Source: Clostridiales bacterium
GTDB taxonomy: Bacteria; Bacillota; Clostridia; Christensenellales; Borkfalkiaceae
NCBI GenBank assembly: GCA_015071005.1
Contig: SVIG01000002.1
Coordinates: forward strand, 124,001 to 188,000
Length of the DNA stretch: 64,000 nucleotides
Direction: 5' to 3'
Below, piece by piece: positions 3,436-14,738 of this stretch (positions are counted from its first letter, which is position 1; every line of letters begins with the position of its first letter). The position numbers and the translations under genes are program-made. The notes beneath the pieces are model-generated. The model saw only the letters and a program-made list of their open reading frames with translations. It made no database searches and was not told the origin of the DNA.

Positions 3436-4704
3436 TTAATCTTCTTCCGTCTCGTCCACGTCTTCCGTGATATGCGAACGGAGTTTGAGCACCTTTTGAC
3501 GGGTCGCTTTTACGATTTTCAGCTCGACGTTTTTCACGCGAACACATTCCCCGATCGGCGGTATACCGCCGTAGACCTCGGTCACCCAACCGCCAACGGT
3601 GTTCGATTCGCACTCTTCCGCTTCGTCTTCCAAGCCGTAGAGTTCAAAGAACTCTTCCAGCCCGCATTTACCGTCCACCCAATACTCGTCTTCCGCGATT
3701 TTGCCGAACAACACTTCTTCTTCGTCATGTTCGTCCCAAATCTCGCCGACAAGCTCTTCTAAAATGTCTTCCAAAGTGACGATACCCAAAAGTCCGCCGT
3801 ACTCGTCCGAAACCGCCGCCATGTGAATTTTTTGCTTTTGGAGCTGTTTCAAAAGGGTGGAAATACGTGTGTATTCCGTTGTGAACACGATATCCTGTAC
3901 GAAATGGGAAATTTCCTTTTCACCGCGCACGTACGCGCTGAAAAAGTCGCGCTCGTGGATCAAGCCGATGACGTTGTCAATCGTGTCTTTATACACGGGC
4001 AAACGGGAATACCCCGTACGCTCGAAAAGCTCGCGGACTTCGTCCATTGTCGAGTCTTCCTCGACCGCGAATACGTCCACGCGCGGAACGAGAATATCTT
4101 CTACTTTCAAATCGTCGAATTCCAAAGCCGAGCGCACGAGTTCGGATTCGTCTTCTTTGAGCGTACCGCTTTCTTCCGCTTCTTCGACCAGGGAAAGGAG
4201 CTCCTCGTCCGTGACTGTTTCGTCCTTTTTCAGCTTGAAAATTTTCGCAAGCAAATATTTGTAGCCGTCGAAAATTTTGCATAAGGGCCAAAGCAGCCAA
4301 TAGAAAAGCGCCATGAGCGGATAGAATAAAAAGCATGCTTTTTCGGGGTACACGCTCGCCAAATATTTGGGCGTGATTTCACCGAACAGCAATACGACTA
4401 CCGTCAAAACCGCCGTAGAAACCGTCGCCGCTACGTCGGGATTCATAATAAGCTTTGCAAAGAGAATTGTACCGAGCGCGGAAGCCGTCAAGTTCACGAT
4501 GTTGTTCCCGACGAGAATTGCCGTTACGAGCTTATCGTATTTTGCATCGGCATATTTATATATTGCCTTCGCGTTCTTCTTACCTTGCGATGCAAGCGTT
4601 TTCAACTTGATTTTGTTCGCGCAAGAAAATGCGGTCTCCGTCCCCGAAAAGAAGCCGGAAAGAAGCACTAACACTATGATCGCAATCGTTAGGGGTAGGT
4701 CCAT
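3436..4704 (-). CDS. CNNM/CorC-type membrane protein (DUF21-CBS-CorC_HlyC)
   Basis: A 422-residue protein of the hemolysin C/CorC-like CNNM family, implicated in magnesium or other divalent cation homeostasis. The N-terminal DUF21 domain has about four membrane segments (first at residues 5-25; the GTETAF and FGEITPKYLA motifs are typical). Two CBS domains occupy about residues 200-320, and a CorC_HlyC domain (about 335-415) ends in an acidic tail. The only in-frame ATG lies about 15 bases after GGAGGA, which is longer than ideal, but an in-frame stop just upstream excludes an earlier start. Transcribed alone from its own promoter. Confidence 0.9.
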   Translation of the reverse strand: MDLPLTIAIIVLVLLSGFFSGTETAFSCANKIKLKTLASQGKKNAKAIYKYADAKYDKLVTAILVGNNIVNLTASALGTILFAKLIMNPDVAATVSTAVLTVVVLLFGEITPKYLASVYPEKACFLFYPLMALFYWLLWPLCKIFDGYKYLLAKIFKLKKDETVTDEELLSLVEEAEESGTLKEDESELVRSALEFDDLKVEDILVPRVDVFAVEEDSTMDEVRELFERTGYSRLPVYKDTIDNVIGLIHERDFFSAYVRGEKEISHFVQDIVFTTEYTRISTLLKQLQKQKIHMAAVSDEYGGLLGIVTLEDILEELVGEIWDEHDEEEVLFGKIAEDEYWVDGKCGLEEFFELYGLEDEAEECESNTVGGWVTEVYGGIPPIGECVRVKNVELKIVKATRQKVLKLRSHITEDVDETEED

Positions 4705-4769
4705 GATAGTTATTGATTATCCTCCAAAAAACATTAAATAACATTTTGAGTTTTTTACTCTCATTTGCT

Positions 4770-4799
4770 ATTATAATACTTTTCACGCAGTTTTGTCAA
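4770..4799 (-). promoter_or_regulatory. Promoter of the CNNM/CorC gene
   Basis: Minus-strand TTGACA (4794-4799) and TATAAT (4770-4775) with an 18-base spacer, about 65 bases before the start codon. The rest of 4800-4950 is AT-rich and I see no gene in it. Confidence 0.75.
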
Positions 4800-4952
4800 C
4801 GAATGTGACGAAATAATTGACTTTTTTCACACGTTTTTTAGAAAATCATAATATTTTATATTATGTATTGAAGTTTTTAGAAGTACTATTGAATTTGAGA
4901 CGCTCCCACGCAACGCCTGACTTTTTTCGTTAGATACGTCGATAAACACGCC

Positions 4953-4979
4953 GCGCCGCCCGAAAAATTCGGGCGGCGC
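4953..4979 (-). terminator. GC-rich hairpin downstream of oppF
   Basis: Perfect 12-base arms (GCGCCGCCCGAA and its complement) around an AAA loop, 17 bases beyond the oppF stop. The T-tract on the minus strand is poor, so it may be a weak terminator or an mRNA-stabilising end. Confidence 0.6.
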
Positions 4980-4995
4980 TTATCGATTTTGCTCC

Positions 4996-6024
4996 CTACT
5001 CTTTTCTTGCCTTCTTCCATTTCATTTCCGTGCTATCTAACGAGAAATGACAGACGCAAAAATGTCCGTTTTCCACCTCTATGACGGGGGCAGGTACGCG
5101 TTGACAAATCTCTTGCGCGTAAAAACAGCGAGTATGGAAGGGGCAGCCCTTCGGCGGCGAAACGGGGTTGGGCAGCTGCCCTTCAAGCAGGATTTTTTCC
5201 GTGCTTTGCGCTTGGATATTCGGCGCGGCGGAAATGAGCGCCATCGTGTAAGGATGGCGCGGATTTTCAAAAATCTGCTCCGCGTCACCCATTTCCACGA
5301 TTTTCCCCAAATACATCACCGCGATTCTATCGGAAATATAGCGCACTACCGACAAATCATGTGAAATGAATAAATAGGTCAGCCCTTCCCTTTCCTTTAA
5401 CTCGGACAAAAGATTGAGAATTTGCGATTGTATCGAAACGTCGAGCGCGGAAACGCATTCGTCGCAAACAATGAATTTCGGTTTTACCGCCAATGCCCTT
5501 GCAATACAAATCCGTTGGCGCTGTCCACCCGAAAACTGATGGGGATAACGGCGCAGCATGTGCTCTTGCAAGCCGCAAGCGCGCATCACCCCTAAAACGT
5601 ACTCCCAAAGCGCGGCGCTCCCTTTCTTGAAATATCCGTGGGTGACCGCCCCTTCCGCAATCAGTTGCCCCACCGTCATGCGCGGATTGAGCGATGAATA
5701 GGGGTCTTGGAAAATAATTTGTAAATCCTTTCGAAAGGCGCGCATTTGTCGGATATTCAAATCGGTCAGCGCCGTTTCCCCTTCCTCTTGATGAAAAAGC
5801 ACTTGTCCGTCCGTCGGCTCGTAAAGACGCAAAAGCGTTCGTCCAAACGTTGACTTCCCCGATCCGCTTTCGCCGACCAAACCAAAGGTTTCCCCCTCGT
5901 AAATTTCCAAGTCCACGCCGTCCACCGCGCGCAAAAACGTTCTATTTCGCGCAAGAAATCCCGTCTTAATGGGGAAATATTTTTTAAGATTTTTAACCGT
6001 TAGTAGTTTCTTTCTGTCGTTCAT
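4996..6024 (-). CDS. oppF: Oligopeptide ABC transporter ATPase OppF
   Basis: About 342 residues from the ATG at 6024 ([13 protein letters not shown]); an in-frame ATG at 6039 is also possible and the ribosome binding site is weak for both. Walker A is [11 protein letters not shown], the signature is FSGGQRQRICIARAL, and Walker B is FIVCDECVSALD. The C-terminal oligopeptide-binding extension with clustered cysteines (CPFHTRCFYAQEIC) marks the OppD/OppF/DppF class, whose members can carry an Fe-S cluster. It begins 32 bases inside oppD, as is usual for coupled subunits, and is last in the opp operon. Confidence 0.93.
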   Translation of the reverse strand: MNDRKKLLTVKNLKKYFPIKTGFLARNRTFLRAVDGVDLEIYEGETFGLVGESGSGKSTFGRTLLRLYEPTDGQVLFHQEEGETALTDLNIRQMRAFRKDLQIIFQDPYSSLNPRMTVGQLIAEGAVTHGYFKKGSAALWEYVLGVMRACGLQEHMLRRYPHQFSGGQRQRICIARALAVKPKFIVCDECVSALDVSIQSQILNLLSELKEREGLTYLFISHDLSVVRYISDRIAVMYLGKIVEMGDAEQIFENPRHPYTMALISAAPNIQAQSTEKILLEGQLPNPVSPPKGCPFHTRCFYAQEICQRVPAPVIEVENGHFCVCHFSLDSTEMKWKKARKE

Positions 6025-7015
6025 TTTTTCTACTCTCATAGTTGGGATAAAAACACCGCACAAAACGTCCGTTCTCACACTCAAAAAGGCTTGGCTCTTC
6101 CGCAACGCATTTTTCCGTGGCATACTTACACCTCGGCGCGAATTTACAGCCCTTGGGAAGCTTGGACGGATGGGGAGTTTTTCCTAAAATCGTCTCCAAG
6201 CGCTCCCCCTTTTTTCGTGCGCTTGGTATCGATGCTAATAAGCCTTCCGTATATGGGTGTAAATAGACGTTTTTTTGAAAAAGGCGAGGGGCAGGTACGC
6301 GTTCAACGATTTGTCCGCAGTACATCACCGCCACGTCGTCCGCCATTTCCTTGACCACGCCCAAGTCGTGCGTGATGAATAAAATCGCCGTGCCGCGCGC
6401 TTTTTGTAAGTCCTGCATTAGCCGCAAAATTTGCGCTTGGATCGTCACGTCAAGCGCCGTTGTCGGCTCGTCGGCAATCAAGAGCTTAGGCTCGCAGGAA
6501 AGCGCCATCGCAATCATTACTCGTTGCCGCATCCCCCCTGAAAGCTGATGCGGGTACTGCTTTGCGACCCGCTCAGGCGAAGCAATCCGCACTTCTTTTA
6601 GCATTTTGAGGGCGTTTTCCTCCGCTTCCTTTTTCCTTTGTTTGCGATGGTATATAAAGGGCTCGGAAAGCTGTTTTTTGATGCTGAATACGGGGTTTAA
6701 TGCGGTCATCGGCTCTTGAAAAATCACGGAAATTTGATTGCCGCGAATGGAACGCATTTCGCTTGGGAAAAGCTTGGTCAAATCCAACGTTTTTCCGCCG
6801 TCACGAAAGAGTATTTCCCCGCTTTCGATTTTTCCGTTTTCATCGAGCAACCCCAAAATACTCATTGCGGAAACGCTTTTTCCCGAACCGCTCTCCCCAA
6901 CGAGCGCGAGCGTTTTTCCTTCTTCCACGGAAAAAGATAGGTCGTTTACCGCCGTCACGTACGTTTTTCCTACCCGAAAAACCGTCCGCAAAGAACGCAC
7001 TTCTAAAAGACTCAT
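5993..7015 (-). CDS. oppD: Oligopeptide ABC transporter ATPase OppD
   Basis: A 340-residue nucleotide-binding subunit. Walker A is [12 protein letters not shown], the signature is [15 protein letters not shown], Walker B is [13 protein letters not shown], and the C-terminal oligo_HPY region has the cysteines [14 protein letters not shown]. It pairs with OppF to power peptide import through OppB/OppC. Its ATG overlaps the oppC stop by four bases, so translation is coupled. Confidence 0.94.
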
Positions 7016-8934
7016 GCCCGTCCCCCCTTTTTCGGGTCAAGCGCGTCGCGCAGAGCGTCCCCGATGACGTTAATGGCGATTACCGCCACCGACAAAAATA
7101 GCGCGGGGAACAGCCATTGCCACCAGTAGTGCTGAATGATCGTGCTATTGTTGCAGCCCGTTAGCATGTTCCCCCAAGTCGGGCGGGGCTGTTGTACGCC
7201 AAAGCCTAAATAGGACAGCGACGATTCCGTCAAAAGACAACCGGCGAAATCGAGCGTCATACTCACCAAAATTACCGACACGACGTTTGGCAACACGTGT
7301 CGAAAGGCAATTTTGCCTTCTTTAACCCCCATAGCGCGCGCGGAAAGAACGAACTCCTTTTCCCTTTCGGCAAGCACTTGCCCACGAATCATCCGCGCAA
7401 GCCCCGTCCACGAAAGCGCGCCCAAAATCAGCATAATGATAAAGATGCGCGTCGTTTCGCTGACGTTGTAATTTTTGATGATTTGCGATAGGAGCATCGC
7501 AAACGGTAAAAAGGGAATCGACGAGAAAATTTCCGTAATGCGCATTAAAAGAGTATCCACAAAACCCCCGAAATATCCCGCCGTACAACCGACCAGAATG
7601 GCAATCGTAGAGGAAACAAGCACCGCGACCGCGCCGATCGTCATAGTCATTTTACCGCCGTGCGCGATTCGCGCAAACACGTCGCGACCACGTCCGTCCG
7701 TACCCATCAAATATCCCTTTAAGCCTGCGCTTTGGCGGAGCTTTCCTGCTCCTACTATATAGCTTTGCAACGACCCCGCAAACACGCGATCTCCCGATTT
7801 TTTGACGTTGCATTGTCCGTAAGCGTTATGCCCCCACGCGTAAGAATTGCCTTGATTCGTCACTCCAACAAAATGCCTAGAACCGCCGTCTAAATCCACG
7901 AAATATTCCCCGTTTTTAAGCGTCGGGAGCAGGTCTTCGCCGTTCTCAAACGCCCCTGCTACAACAAGCTCGTCATCTTCCGTCAAAAGGGCAATACATT
8001 TGTTGCTGGAAGTGATTTTTTTGACTTTTCTACCACCCAGGTACGCGTTCAAATCCCGTCCGCGCCCGTTTTTAGAGCCTACAACAGACGAGAAAAAGCT
8101 CGTATTCGTCACGATCTTTCCATCGCTTGTTAAACCTACCGCCAAGGAGTTGGTAAAAACGATTTTTTCCATACCCGTACTCTTTTCAAAATCCTGTAAA
8201 TTGCGGACGGCGTTCGTATTTCCCCAAACGTAGCATTTTCCGTCTTCCAAAATCAAAGCGGTGGCTTGATATCCACAAGAAAGACTTTTTATCCCCGACT
8301 CGCCCACGCCGTTTTGCAGCTCAATCGGCATAGAAATAGCATTTAAGGTCGGCTCGTAATCGTACTGTCCGCAACTCTTATCCCCCCAACCGACAATTTC
8401 CCCCGTTTTCGTGACGGCGATGATATGGTCTTTCCCCGCCGCCGCGGCAAGCACGCCCTCTTTTTTTACTTGTTTGGGAATAGATTTTAAGTCCTTTTTA
8501 TTTAATCGATCCTTGGTATTTCCCCAAACGTAAAGCTTCCCCTTGCCCGAAACGCCGACGGTGAAATCGGCAAAGCCATTGATATCCTGCACGTCCTTTT
8601 TTAAGCCGCGCGGCAGAGCGCGCAAGGAATACCCAGGGGGCGCGTTTTGCTGCAATGGGTCGGTGTAGTTTTTATCAAGCTTTACGATATTCGGCGCGAT
8701 AAAGACGAACAAGAAAAGACTAATCAATACCGTGAGCGCGAAAACGGCGCTTTTCTTTGCGAAAAACGCCTTAGCAAGAAGCTTGGACGGACTTTCAATT
8801 TTCTCGTCCCCTTGCAACGTTTGCCATTCCTTTTTGCTGCCAAAAATCGTGCGTTTTATCCATCTGAACGCCCGTTTCAACGCGGACACGGTGGCTCGAT
8901 ATGCTTTTTTGAATATATTTTTATCACTTTTCAT
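7012..8934 (-). CDS. oppC: OppC-type ABC permease with an inserted RCC1-like propeller domain
   Basis: 640 residues, about twice the usual OppC length. Residues 1-60 are a basic cytoplasmic lead, and residues 62-82 are the first membrane helix. Residues about 105-395 are an insertion with at least six RCC1-like units, recognised by repeated G-x-x-x-x-W-G-x signatures (KLYVWGN, EIVGWGDKSCGQ, KCYVWGN, SYAWGHNAYGQ). From residue about 408 the normal permease resumes with MGTDGRGRDVFARIAHGG, five further membrane segments, and the EAA loop (AREKEFVLSARAMGVKEG-like region). By OppC topology the propeller would lie outside the membrane, between helices 1 and 2, where the substrate-binding protein docks. 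The reading frame is continuous and both transporter halves are intact. The function of the insertion is unknown. Confidence 0.9.
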   Translation of the reverse strand: MKSDKNIFKKAYRATVSALKRAFRWIKRTIFGSKKEWQTLQGDEKIESPSKLLAKAFFAKKSAVFALTVLISLFLFVFIAPNIVKLDKNYTDPLQQNAPPGYSLRALPRGLKKDVQDINGFADFTVGVSGKGKLYVWGNTKDRLNKKDLKSIPKQVKKEGVLAAAAGKDHIIAVTKTGEIVGWGDKSCGQYDYEPTLNAISMPIELQNGVGESGIKSLSCGYQATALILEDGKCYVWGNTNAVRNLQDFEKSTGMEKIVFTNSLAVGLTSDGKIVTNTSFFSSVVGSKNGRGRDLNAYLGGRKVKKITSSNKCIALLTEDDELVVAGAFENGEDLLPTLKNGEYFVDLDGGSRHFVGVTNQGNSYAWGHNAYGQCNVKKSGDRVFAGSLQSYIVGAGKLRQSAGLKGYLMGTDGRGRDVFARIAHGGKMTMTIGAVAVLVSSTIAILVGCTAGYFGGFVDTLLMRITEIFSSIPFLPFAMLLSQIIKNYNVSETTRIFIIMLILGALSWTGLARMIRGQVLAEREKEFVLSARAMGVKEGKIAFRHVLPNVVSVILVSMTLDFAGCLLTESSLSYLGFGVQQPRPTWGNMLTGCNNSTIIQHYWWQWLFPALFLSVAVIAINVIGDALRDALDPKKGGRA

Positions 8935-10175: not shown

Positions 10176-12323
10176 TTATTCGTAAAAATCGGCAGAATCG
10201 CGTAGATAATTCATACTATAATGATCGTATTTTTCGGGGTCGAGTGTCCAAGAAAAGGATTGATCGTATGCCGCGCCCGTAAAGCCCGTGGCAAAGTTTA
10301 CTGCACCATAGCGCGCGCGGGTAAAGCCGTAGGCAGGCATTTGCGCGTACTCTCCGTAAAGCGCCGTATTCATATTTCCCGAAGAATAGGTGATATATGC
10401 GCCGATCTTTTTGCCTGCGTTGGGGTTGTTTTGCCAAGCGGTGATGAGTTGATCGGTGACAGGATTGGGTTGCGTGCCCATCCAGTTGATTACGAGCGGC
10501 ATATAATACTCACCGTTTACCTTTACCGTTTTGTATTTATTGTCCGTCGCGGCAAACGTGAGGTTATTATAGGTTTTTTCGTAACCCGAAAGCTTTTTGT
10601 AGCGCACGCCGACGCCCTCTTTGTACGGTTCGCCCTTCGCGTTGTAGACCCATCCGCCTTCTTCAAGCTCCGCTTTCGCGTCTTCGACGCTGTACGGATA
10701 GGTGTTGAGCTTTAATCGGTCCTTGACGGCGAGATAGGCATCCGAGCCGACGTGATAGGGCGCGTGTACGACTGTGCCGTAGCCGCCCGTAAAGACTTGC
10801 GCGAACTCGTCCCGATCAATCGTGTGCATCACCGCTCTACGCACCTCCGCAAACTGCGTTGGACCAAAATCACATCGGAAAGCGAGCTTGCCATATCCAG
10901 CGCGATCGTAATGTGTTTCCTTGAAACGAACGTTGTCCACGAGTGCCAGCGCGGCGCGTGTTTCTTCGCCGCCCGTCACCGAAGCAAGCACGTCCACTCT
11001 GCCTTGCCGCAGTTGATCAAGCTGTGTTTCGGGCACGATTTTCACGTACGAAATCCGTTCGATGGACGGAATTCCGCGATGGTCGCCAAGATAGTTTGGA
11101 TTGCGTTTTAAGGTAGCCGTTCTTGCACTCGCGTCATACTTTTCTAAAACATACGGACCTGCGTAAGGGAAATCGTTCTCATCCAAATTGCGCAAATTGC
11201 CCTTAATTTCGTCCGCCATTACGTAAGACGAAACGCCGTTTTTCGTCGTCTTTTCATAGTAGGCTTTCTCCAAGTATGCGCCTTCCCCATCATCCTTCAC
11301 CTCATACCTGCCCCCATATAACGCTGTTGGAACAGGGACAAATTCCCCATAGCGAATGGCGTAATAATAGTTTGCATATTCCCTTTTCACCGTCACGGAA
11401 AAAGTGTTGTCATCGAGCAAACGCACGCCTAAAAAAGGAGCGATTTCCCCTTCGCCCGTATTTGCGTTAAAAGCTTCGTACCCAACGAGCGCAAGCCCTG
11501 CGGCGTCGCTGCCGCCCGCTTCCTTCATTACCTTACTACTCCCTGCGAGCAAGGGCATAAGATAGTTTTGCGCAGTAATTTTCGAGCCGTCAGAAAAAAC
11601 GAGATTATCCGCGATTGTAAGCGTGAACGTTTTGGTTCCGTCCTCGTTCATTTTCTCGTCGTGCGCGGCTAAAATTTTACTATCCGCCCATTGATACGTG
11701 CCACCCATGTCCGTGATGACGGTGGAATAACCGCTCGTAAGGTTTTGAATGGCAAGGTCCGCCGCCCCAGGCGCGGACTTGCCGAAAGACGCGTTTCTAA
11801 ACGCACCCGAAAGCTCGGTGTTGCTACCTAAAATCACCGAGTTTTCCCCCTTGATGATTTTCGCGCCAACTATCGCGTCCGTCACGCTCCAATAAGGGCT
11901 TGTTTTTAGCTCGTCTATCTTCGCGTTGTAGACGTCGTAATACTGATTGGAATAAAGCGGCGCTTCGGGGACAAGCATATTCCAACGTTGCATAAAAAGT
12001 CGCCACCATTCGTTGTAGGCGGCTGTCGGGGTCGGAAAATTTGCCGTCGGTTGGGCGTTATATACCATTGCCATGGACAAAAAGTCCATGCCAAGCTCAT
12101 ATTCCTTGCCCTCGACAAGCGCATACGCCCTACCGTCCAAGCCTTCCCTAACCATATCCAGCGTCACCTTTTGCCCGATTTCTTCGTAGACCGAGCGGTA
12201 GCTCTCTCGGTATACCACGTCTTGAAAGACCTGCTCGTTTTTCGATTTTTTACAAGCGGAAAAGCCCAAAATCGGCACAATTACACAGCCTATCCAAGAA
12301 AAAAAACGCATTTTTGTATTCAT
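10176..12323 (-). CDS. oppA: Oligopeptide-binding lipoprotein OppA
   Basis: A 715-residue extracellular solute-binding protein (SBP_bac_5 type), longer than the usual 540-600. The signal peptide has a lipobox ending at Cys24. Family traits include the YNAQPTANFPTPTAAYNEWW region, LTIADNLVFSDGSKITAQNY near residue 230, and the LEKYDASARTATLKRNPNYL segment. It delivers peptides to OppB/OppC. No clear ribosome binding site is seen before the ATG at 12323 (only an A-rich stretch). It is first in the opp operon, and its 5' region lies back to back with the metY promoter. Confidence 0.9.
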   Translation of the reverse strand: MNTKMRFFSWIGCVIVPILGFSACKKSKNEQVFQDVVYRESYRSVYEEIGQKVTLDMVREGLDGRAYALVEGKEYELGMDFLSMAMVYNAQPTANFPTPTAAYNEWWRLFMQRWNMLVPEAPLYSNQYYDVYNAKIDELKTSPYWSVTDAIVGAKIIKGENSVILGSNTELSGAFRNASFGKSAPGAADLAIQNLTSGYSTVITDMGGTYQWADSKILAAHDEKMNEDGTKTFTLTIADNLVFSDGSKITAQNYLMPLLAGSSKVMKEAGGSDAAGLALVGYEAFNANTGEGEIAPFLGVRLLDDNTFSVTVKREYANYYYAIRYGEFVPVPTALYGGRYEVKDDGEGAYLEKAYYEKTTKNGVSSYVMADEIKGNLRNLDENDFPYAGPYVLEKYDASARTATLKRNPNYLGDHRGIPSIERISYVKIVPETQLDQLRQGRVDVLASVTGGEETRAALALVDNVRFKETHYDRAGYGKLAFRCDFGPTQFAEVRRAVMHTIDRDEFAQVFTGGYGTVVHAPYHVGSDAYLAVKDRLKLNTYPYSVEDAKAELEEGGWVYNAKGEPYKEGVGVRYKKLSGYEKTYNNLTFAATDNKYKTVKVNGEYYMPLVINWMGTQPNPVTDQLITAWQNNPNAGKKIGAYITYSSGNMNTALYGEYAQMPAYGFTRARYGAVNFATGFTGAAYDQSFSWTLDPEKYDHYSMNYLRDSADFYE

Positions 12324-12467: not shown

Positions 12468-13757
12468 ATGGAAGATAAAAAACTTCGCATTGAAACCACT
12501 TGCGTACAAGGCGGCTACACCCCCGGCAACGGCGAGCCTCGTCAAGTACCCATCGTACAGAGCACGACGTTTAAGTACGCTACGAGCGAAGATATGGGTA
12601 AGCTTTTCGATTTGGAAGCGAGCGGTTATTTCTATTCCCGTTTACAAAACCCAACCTGCGATACGGTTGCGGCAAAAATTTGCGCGCTCGAAGGCGGTAG
12701 CGCGGCGATGCTTCTCTCGTCGGGACAAGCGGCGAATTTCTTTGCGGTATTTAATATCGCGACCTGCGGCGATCATATCATTTCCTCGTCCTCGATCTAC
12801 GGCGGTACGTTCAATCTTTTCGCCGTGACGATGAAGAAAATGGGAATTGAATTTACTTTCCTTTCCCCCGACTGCACGGAAGCAGAGCTGAACGCGGCGT
12901 TTAAGCCCAACACGAAAGCGGTGTTCGGCGAGACGATTGCAAACCCTGCCCTTACCGTACTCGATATTGAAAAGTTCGCAAAAGCGGCGCACGCGCACGG
13001 CGTACCCTTGATTATCGACAACACCTTTGCAACCCCTGTAAATTGCCGTCCTTTCGAGTTCGGCGCGGACATTGTCACCCATTCGACCACCAAGTATATG
13101 GACGGTCACGGCGTAGCGGTGGGCGGTTGTATCGTAGATTCGGGCAAGTTCGATTGGCTCGCGCACGCGGATAAATTCCCTGGACTTTGTACCCCCGACG
13201 ATAGCTATCACGGGATTACGTATGCGGAAAAATTCGGGCTTGGCGGCGCGTATATCACCAAGGCGACGGCACAGCTTATGCGCGACTTCGGCTGTACGCA
13301 ATCTCCGCAAAGCGCTTTCTATCTCAACCTTGGCTTGGAAAGCTTGCACGTGAGAATGGAACGCCATTGCTTGAACGGTCAAAAGGTTGCCGAATACTTG
13401 GAATCCAACGAAAAAATTAGCTGGGTGAATTATCCCGGTCTTAAATCGAACAAATACTACGATTTGGCGCAAAAATACATGCCGAAAGGCACGTGCGGTG
13501 TCGTTAGCTTTGGCGTAAAAGGCGGCAGAGCGGCGGCGGAAAAATTCATGAAAGCGCTCAAAATCATCGCGATTGAAACGCACGTTGCGGACGCACGTAG
13601 CTGCTGTTTGCACCCTGCAAGCGCAACCCACCGTCAAATGAACGAAGAAGAACTCATCGCGGCAGGCGTACCCGGCGATCTCGTGCGCCTTTCCTGCGGC
13701 ATCGAAAACTATCAGGATTTGATTGCCGATATCGAGCAAGCGCTCAACACGCTTTAA
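12468..13757 (+). CDS. metY: O-acetylhomoserine sulfhydrylase (PLP enzyme)
   Basis: A 429-residue Cys/Met-metabolism PLP enzyme making homocysteine from O-acetylhomoserine and sulfide. The phosphate-binding SSGQAANFFAVF lies near residue 85, and the PLP Lys is at about residue 209 in STTKYMDGHG. The N-terminus RIETTCVQGGYTP and the length of about 430 favour MetY over the shorter MetB/MetC/Mgl enzymes. An AAGGAG site lies 7 bases before the ATG. metA, whose product it would use, follows 54 bases downstream, so the pair makes a direct-sulfhydrylation route to methionine. Confidence 0.9.
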   Translation: MEDKKLRIETTCVQGGYTPGNGEPRQVPIVQSTTFKYATSEDMGKLFDLEASGYFYSRLQNPTCDTVAAKICALEGGSAAMLLSSGQAANFFAVFNIATCGDHIISSSSIYGGTFNLFAVTMKKMGIEFTFLSPDCTEAELNAAFKPNTKAVFGETIANPALTVLDIEKFAKAAHAHGVPLIIDNTFATPVNCRPFEFGADIVTHSTTKYMDGHGVAVGGCIVDSGKFDWLAHADKFPGLCTPDDSYHGITYAEKFGLGGAYITKATAQLMRDFGCTQSPQSAFYLNLGLESLHVRMERHCLNGQKVAEYLESNEKISWVNYPGLKSNKYYDLAQKYMPKGTCGVVSFGVKGGRAAAEKFMKALKIIAIETHVADARSCCLHPASATHRQMNEEELIAAGVPGDLVRLSCGIENYQDLIADIEQALNTL

Positions 13758-13811: not shown

Positions 13812-14738
13812 ATGCCTATTAAAATTCCCGACAATTTACCTGCGGTCAAGACGTTAGAAAGCGAAAATATTTTCGTGATGACGGAAAACCGCGCTATCAC
13901 GCAGGACATTCGTCCCTTGCGTATTCTCGTGCTGAATTTAATGCCGAAAAAAATCGAGACGGAAACGCAGTTTGCGCGCCTTCTCGGCAACACCCCTTTG
14001 CAGGTGGAAATGGAGCTTATTCACACGAAATCCCACCAATCGAAGAACGTGGCGGAAGAGCATTTGCTCGCTTTTTATAAGACTTTTGACGATATCAAAG
14101 ACCAAAAATTCGACGGTATGATTATCACGGGCGCACCCGTGGAACATATGCCCTTTGAAGAAGTGGAATATTGGCAAGAGCTTTGCGAGATTATGGAGTG
14201 GACCAAAACCCACGTGCATAGCACCTTCCACGTTTGTTGGGGGGCGCAGGCTGGGCTTTACTACCACTACGGTATTCAAAAACAGGAAGTCGCGTCGAAA
14301 ATGTTTGGCGTATTCCCGCACCGCGTTGAATACAAGCAGTCCATTCTATTCCGTGGCTTTGACGATATGTTTATGGTGCCGCAATCCCGTCATACGACCG
14401 TTTTGCGCTCGGACATTGAAAAGGTGACGGACTTGAAAATCCTCGCTTCGTCCGATAAGACGGGCGTTTATGCGGTTTCCACGAAAAACGGAAAACAAAT
14501 TTTCATCACGGGGCACTCGGAATACGATGCGGACACGTTGAAAAACGAATACCTGCGCGACCTTTCGCAAGGCAAACCGATCGCCATCCCCGAAAACTAT
14601 TTCCCCGAAAACGATCCGACGCTGCCGCCCATCGTTTCTTGGCGCGGACACGCACATTTGCTCTTTTCCAACTGGCTCAATTACTTTGTATACCAAAGCA
14701 CGCCGTACGACATTAAAAAGGTTGAGGAACGAGAGTAA
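13812..14738 (+). CDS. metA: Homoserine O-acetyltransferase (MetA/HTS family)
   Basis: A 308-residue protein activating homoserine for methionine synthesis. The catalytic Cys142 is in [11 protein letters not shown], and His235 and Glu237 are in GHSEYD, exactly at canonical positions. Residue 111 is Glu ([12 protein letters not shown]); in this family Glu111 is associated with acetyl-CoA and Gly111 with succinyl-CoA use, so an acetyltransferase is inferred, matching the metY neighbour. The last 51 bases of the gene plus 16 bases beyond it are repeated exactly 2.5 kb downstream. Confidence 0.94.

Follow-up and report, generated by a model that had tools for sequence, protein, structure and literature searches.

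The gene studied here raises the question of what an RCC1-type propeller does inside a permease subunit of a peptide importer. It lies in a stretch of 64,000 nucleotides from a Clostridiales genome, referred to below as the window. A preliminary description, made from the sequence, had read its product as an OppC of 640 aa, encoded in one clean frame, with at least six RCC1-type units placed between the first membrane helix (TM1) and the permease core. Both the permease family and the RCC1 fold are known. The question bears on how type I importers recognize and empty their binding proteins, a matter that has been argued from a few systems. Throughout, coordinates are positions within the window, residue numbers refer to the 640-aa OppC unless stated otherwise, and labels such as L032 denote individual loci.

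A predicted seven-bladed propeller in an OppC-type permease

The single frame of 640 aa was borne out, and Pfam, the alignment to a solved chain and an AlphaFold model all place the RCC1-type repeats between TM1 and the permease core (Table 1). In the Pfam searches, OppC_N (PF12911) scored 31.4 bits (cut-off 23.9), BPD_transp_1 (PF00528) 114.8 bits (5e-33; cut-off 26.4) and RCC1_2 (PF13540), which matched four stretches of the protein, 85.4 bits (1.6e-24; cut-off 22); RCC1 (PF00415) was found by hmmscan with 30 bits (7.7e-07; cut-off 21.7). WD40_RLD (PF25390) remained below its cut-off (5.6e-28, 98.7 bits versus 150), the whole protein did not reach the NCBIfam equivalog Opp4C (NF045476; 297.5 bits versus 350), and the other 24 NCBIfam families listed for it were all under their own cut-offs. 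The known OppABCDF and DppABCDF systems considered were E. coli OppBCDF (8z21), Mtb OppABCD (8j5q-t) and E. coli DppABCDF. E. coli OppC (PDB 8z21_B) aligned in two parts, with chain residues 4-76 at residues 33-100, a weak match when this flank is taken by itself (8.9 bits), and chain residues 80-300 at residues 406-635. This split alignment implies that about 305 residues stand where E. coli OppC has about 3.

The AlphaFold single-chain model contains a confidently predicted propeller with seven sets of strands between TM1 and TM2, and its membrane part matches the permease fold of solved OppC and DppC chains. In a structure search with the model, the propeller matched UVR8 over residues 109-412 and BLIP-II over residues 101-396, from which it follows that the modelled ring is closed. 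The model thereby shows the insert as a complete seven-bladed RCC1-like propeller in the outer TM1-TM2 segment, extending from the end of OppC_N to the GTD..GRD motif. The structure prediction that the preliminary description had suggested as a check thus left its reading standing: the RCC1 repeats hold, the count of at least six units is corrected to seven blades in the model, and the range of 7750-8622, or about residues 105-395, becomes a propeller from about residue 101 to residues 404-406 (7717-8634). None of the listed BLIP-II, UVR8, RCC1 and HERC2 propeller chains is part of a permease.

The limits of the individual blades were drawn by us from the model strands. WG pairs occur within the insert at residues 137, 183, 237 and 367, and blade 4 is the least conserved blade (mean conservation 0.451). 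Because blade 7 runs directly into the motif GTDGRGRD, no linker separates the propeller from the permease. Residues 1-61, which precede TM1, are strongly positive (17 K+R versus 5 D+E); this fits a propeller on the outer side of the membrane and supports the earlier proposal that it faces outside. In the window's genome (93.86% complete), PF13540 has three matches, all of them inside the fused OppC gene. A profile search with PF00415 gave no match in this genome, although hmmscan of the OppC protein matches PF00415, and none in any of 14 control genomes.

Table 1. Features of the fused operon in the window. Blades are listed with their strands in the AlphaFold model.
Feature	Position	Strand	Basis
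OppF-type ATPase, 375 aa	4996..6123	-	Pfam and NCBIfam
OppD-type ATPase	5993..7015	-	Pfam and NCBIfam
OppC-type permease with RCC1 propeller, 640 aa	7012..8934	-	Single open frame; Pfam; model
BPD_transp_1 permease core, residues 445-635	7030..7602	-	Pfam; matches OppC/DppC cryo-EM chains
OppC motif GTDGRGRD, residues 411-418	7681..7704	-	Alignment; directly after blade 7
Predicted seven-bladed RCC1-like propeller, residues 101-406	7717..8634	-	AlphaFold model
Blade 7, residues 380-406	7717..7797	-	Strands 383-387, 390-395, 398-404; runs into permease core
Blade 6, residues 343-379	7798..7908	-	Strands 345-350, 354-359, 364-368
Blade 5, residues 304-342	7909..8025	-	Strands 304-309, 313-318, 323-327
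Blade 4, residues 255-303	8026..8172	-	Strands 255-260, 265-269, then short ones only
Blade 3, residues 213-254	8173..8298	-	Strands 215-220, 224-229, 234-239
Blade 2, residues 158-212	8299..8463	-	Strands 161-166, 170-175, 180-184
Blade 1, residues 108-157	8464..8613	-	Strands 115-120, 124-129, 134-138
OppC_N region with TM1, residues 48-100 (TM1 helix 61-83)	8635..8793	-	Pfam PF12911; model helix
OppB-type permease, 338 aa	8943..9959	-	Pfam and NCBIfam
OppA-type binding protein, 715 aa	10176..12323	-	Pfam and homology
OppA main part, OppA residues 165-715	10179..11831	-	L032 alignment
OppA N-terminal module, OppA residues 28-160, C-terminal in ordinary OppA	11844..12242	-	9p48_A and L032 alignments

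The fusion forms a widespread OppC subfamily

The genes of the operon are arranged in the order OppA, OppB, OppC, OppD and OppF, all on the minus strand. The OppC flanks are intact and so are all four neighbours, in agreement with the normal OppB, OppD and OppF partners noted previously. As judged by family and operon, the fused OppC is a subunit of a peptide-type ABC importer. The same genome also carries a propeller-free Opp operon (L164).

GTDB contigs were scanned with patterns that immediately flank the propeller on either side, which yielded 238 stretches encoding relatives of residues 86-425, and in the best 80 of these 238 the fusion lies in one open frame without exception (80/80). 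Among these 80 loci, L058 and L059 come from one MAG, and L086 and L087 are near copies. The named sources are the culture-collection strain Acetatifactor muris DSM 23669 (L117), an Eisenbergiella, Candidatus Limihabitans and Candidatus Limivicinus; nearly all remaining loci are metagenome-assembled. A full-length fusion was present in 33 of 56 other genomes of the window's genus, a count that largely covers the GTDB loci of this genus. It was found in 7 of the 12 same-genus genomes that are at least 90% complete and was absent from the other 5, which indicates that the operon is patchy.

At the order level, 34 of 395 genomes had a match spanning the propeller and the junction (E ≤ 1e-53), and 77 had any match at 1e-6, free RCC1 proteins included. 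Matches at E ≤ 1e-25 were obtained in 17 of 391 genomes at the class level and 14 of 398 at the phylum level. The genome of the window is part of each of these counts, and another genome stands in two sets; after removal of this overlap, 16 genomes belong to the same class and 12 to the same phylum beyond the class. From 19 of these 28 and one more order-level genome, the loci were fetched (L212-L231), and all 20 encode a fused OppC, of 602-696 aa; the locus searches used the propeller with its flanks and so favour intact propellers. The neighbouring genes are kept as well. All 80 GTDB loci have OppD, 79 have OppB and 76 have OppA, the missing ones falling at contig ends, and in the 20 deeper loci OppB and OppD are present in all and OppA in 19, the contig of the twentieth ending in OppB. 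Where the gene might have been taken for a one-off OppC, these searches thus identify the fusion as a widespread OppC subfamily across families, orders and classes. Among 3173 matching plasmid records, none covered 80% of the query, which was the Acetatifactor protein. The fusion is undescribed in the open-access literature searched, a scope outside which subscription papers and preprints lie.

Origin of the fusion and the insertion site

In a tree built from the permease core only, 39 fused and 20 unfused OppCs were parted at one branch (bootstrap 100, SH-aLRT 96), which was found in all 200 bootstrap trees. The tree comprises 39 of 77 fused rows, and its unfused set consists of 19 same-order OppCs and one paralogue (L092), which was kept and also has a long branch; L181, with a very long branch, was left out and L212-L231 are absent. 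Since the unfused rows are nearly all from the same order, a wider sample could change the single grouping.

The spacing from TM1 to the GTD motif is 47-91 residues in twelve short and 222-548 residues in six long unfused OppCs, and 314-362 residues in the 54 of 98 fused rows that were measurable by motif; the motif missed the other 44 fused rows and 2 of the 20 unfused ones. The TM1-TM2 site accepts inserts, the propeller being one case. Long inserts in the corresponding position, from OppC_N to the core, were observed in L038-L040, L042-L044, L046 and L047 (again as L173-L178, L180 and L181), but these have no RCC1 match and no Pfam family above cut-off. The OppC of L041/L179 is long through an N-terminal extension instead.

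The binding proteins occur in two chain orders

The OppA of the window, to which the residue numbers in this section refer, has a lipobox-like Cys24, as read by eye. Its residues 98-151 match residues 502-555 of the 562 in PDB 9p48_A and its residues 389-524 match residues 177-305, and a profile search agrees with this swapped order. The OppA of L032, which belongs to a fused operon of the same genus, has the ordinary order: residues 150-713 of the window's OppA match its residues 35-615 (7e-139), and residues 68-152 match its residues 629-708 of 713 (6e-22). In the structural model (mean pLDDT 90.1), residues 31-160 have pLDDT values of 89-97. Residues 1-441 of the 507 in E. coli DppA (1dpp_A) align at residues 161-714, as a permutation predicts; a few other solved chains align to the model from residues 126-140 onward. 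The alignments and the model together show the window's OppA as circularly permuted, its C-terminal segment having moved to the N-terminus. Circular permutation has also been reported for Treponema MglB-2 (Tp0684), the binding protein of a putative ABC importer (PMC4990184). MglB-2 binds glucose, whereas the window's OppA is a peptide-type SBP_bac_5 protein, and both chain orders occur within one operon type.

Among the complete OppA frames in the 80 GTDB loci, the permuted order occurs in 68, a number that includes near copies, and the frames of L096 and L129 are ordinary; the OppA of L120 seems to be broken by a frame change. The loci L184-L203 contain 6 permuted, 13 ordinary and one unassigned OppA, and the deeper loci L212-L231 contain 3, 16 and one, respectively. 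On a tree of fused OppCs with 53 permuted and 17 ordinary rows, one change suffices, with a support of 78 for the dividing branch; this tree retains about one in four rows of the window's genus, lacks L059 and L087 as near copies, has 7 unlabelled rows and does not contain L212-L231. The permutation apparently arose once within the fused family. The ordinary order was found in 8 of 8 phylum-level and 8 of 11 class-level loci fetched (of the other class-level loci, 2 are permuted and 1 is unassigned). This presence of ordinary OppA in most of the distant fused loci suggests that the permutation probably came later than the uptake of the propeller.

Two further observations concern the binding proteins. 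In Acetatifactor muris DSM 23669, the fused operon has two OppA genes next to it, one on each strand (2-2089, minus, and 4054-6414, plus, in L117); one is permuted, and the other, truncated where the fetched sequence stops, is ordinary. Among the 20 Opp loci of the order that lack the propeller (L164-L183), 18 have their own larger binding protein of 743-949 aa, and the binding proteins of these loci match only parts of the main module of the window's OppA, the N-terminal module not being detected.

Divergence of the propeller and its partners

Evolutionary distances were compared in 82 of 100 loci and the window, as partial correlations given the remaining operon proteins and with 500 permutations. 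The partial correlation between propeller and OppA, given the core, OppB, OppD and OppF, was 0.76 and was reached by none of the 500 permutations. That between the propeller and its own core was 0.07 (0.37 with tree distances), and core and OppB, the positive control, gave 0.86 (0.65 with tree distances). With tree distances, propeller and OppA gave 0.65 over all loci and 0.35, 0.83 and 0.49 in three sub-sets. The value of 0.35 was that of the window's genus, where the positive control fails (-0.18) and the sub-set is therefore uninformative, and in the 14 loci with canonical OppA the propeller correlated more strongly with OppF (0.60) than with OppA (0.49; 0.09 by rank). The correlation between propeller and OppD was also positive (0.48, reached by 0 of 500 permutations; 0.58 with tree distances), which is not predicted by docking. 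With some exceptions, the divergence of the propeller thus follows that of OppA more closely than that of its own core, and it should be noted that distance correlations can also stem from shared selection on two fast-evolving outer parts. One recombination block would not explain the correlation between propeller and OppA, because OppB lies between the two in the gene order. When the blades were correlated one by one with the parts of OppA, the signal was diffuse across all blades and singled out no docking blade.

Column covariation was assessed in 107 sequences (effective number 83) as the fraction of pairs over 3 sd. Propeller and OppA (0.0054) ranked second to the control pair of core and OppB (0.0068); the values for OppA-OppB (0.0045) and propeller-OppB (0.0042) were both near that of propeller-OppA, and core-OppA (0.0026) and propeller-core (0.0021) followed. 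The single best covarying pairs were not propeller-OppA pairs, and no residue-level interface was drawn.

A conserved face of the propeller was considered and dropped. The AB loops were the best conserved (0.648), but the CD loops (0.547) were hardly above the BC loops (0.534), even though pooled AB and CD loops differed from BC and DA loops with a p-value of ~1e-6. The CD set contains residues of the OppC motif that follows blade 7, a strand in blade 4 had been placed by hand, and RCC1 signature residues fall within the loops compared.

Possible functions of the propeller

We propose that the propeller is a platform on which the lipid-anchored OppA docks and is clamped, through a contact that we infer, in the manner of MalF-P2, and we give this a probability of roughly one in two. 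MalF-P2 belongs to a different importer and differs from the OppC propeller in insertion point and fold. In the pneumococcal Ami importer, AmiC is the OppB-type permease. In published AlphaFold models of Ami (PMC11192437), lobe 2 of the binding protein is touched by a coil that joins TM1 and TM2 of the OppC-type AmiD, and the two outer domains of AmiC are a wedge and a proposed recognition platform (ECD2). Ami, as modelled, is therefore also a Gram-positive peptide importer with a large outer permease insert that holds the binding protein; there, however, the large insert is borne by AmiC, and AmiD has only a coil where the propeller of the window sits. As the propeller occupies the OppC segment that corresponds to this AmiD coil, the comparison points to docking. 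MalF-P2 is described as a folded outer permease region touching MalE (PMC3150292), and the scoop motif of DppB as filling the cleft of DppA in E. coli DppABCDF (PMC12136057).

According to our proposal, the whole propeller, inserted in the outer TM1-TM2 segment of OppC between the end of OppC_N and GTD..GRD, would hold one lobe of OppA over the channel entrance and would help to hand over the peptide to the channel; MalF-P2 acts in this way on MalE, and the models assign such a role to the outer domains of AmiC. In a large branch that includes the window, OppA itself was permuted, probably later, so that its lipid anchor now precedes the former C-terminal module instead of the main part; the permutation may be linked to the propeller. 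An OppA-docking role had been among the functions suggested at the outset, and the kept operon, the distance correlation and the published position of the TM1-TM2 segment support it indirectly. Only tentatively would we go further and regard the fused operons as a separate class of Bacillota peptide importers in which docking was rebuilt, the OppC propeller forming a rigid docking tower and OppA then being permuted in one branch so that its lipid anchor and docking surface suit the tower. If this were true, propeller uptake followed by OppA permutation would provide a natural series of states from before and after the re-engineering of a delivery step.

It appears somewhat unlikely to us that the propeller is a receptor for a ligand other than OppA, for example a free peptide, a glycan or a cell-wall component that is concentrated or sensed. 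RCC1/BLIP-II propellers do include secreted protein binders (PMC9218822), and two of the closest solved folds, those of BLIP-II and UVR8, sit in PDB entries with partner proteins, as judged by the entry titles; the divergence of the propeller following OppA over all loci argues, indirectly, for a different partner. We consider it unlikely that the propeller is carried along as a tolerated passenger or serves only as a spacer, without specific contact. This idea gains from the same-order OppCs with long non-RCC1 inserts at the same place, but a passenger should decay, and the full-length propeller is kept in the best 80 of the 238 GTDB stretches and in 20 further loci, found by searches that favour intact propellers, the spacing from TM1 to GTD is 314-362 residues in the fused rows measured, and many propeller residues are invariant in an alignment of 79 sequences. 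An action on the membrane complex, in which the propeller touches OppB and braces or gates the translocator, is very unlikely: the direct joint between blade 7 and GTD..GRD and the column covariation with OppB would suit it, but the propeller-OppB partial correlation was 0.007 (reached by 213 of 500 permutations) and ranged from -0.26 to 0.02 with tree distances. Lastly, an assembly chimera or a mistranslated neighbour, for which a check among homologues had been suggested, is rejected in view of the one-frame fusion in all 80 GTDB loci, one of them from a culture-collection strain, in the same-genus genomes, which overlap with these loci, and in the 20 deeper loci.

The fused subfamily offers a large, well-folded domain at a likely docking site, which could be expressed alone, and close relatives with two OppA chain orders make docking and tethering directly testable. 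An RCC1 propeller would not have been expected in OppC, and the same operon type of gut bacteria provides a documented circular permutation.

Further features of the fused loci

The OppF proteins of L086-L133 are mostly ~500-580 aa long (median 538 among 40 complete frames, one of which is a 328-aa paralogue), and 17 of 19 in L212-L231 exceed 500 aa; that of the window has 375 aa. Fused OppC frames of 822 aa were found in L096 (7278-9746) and L139 (715-3183), with ~150-175 extra N-terminal residues as predicted from the frame. Two ORFs adjoining the operon in the window, at 12468-13757 and 13812-14738, both on the plus strand, resemble methionine-synthesis genes as read by eye.
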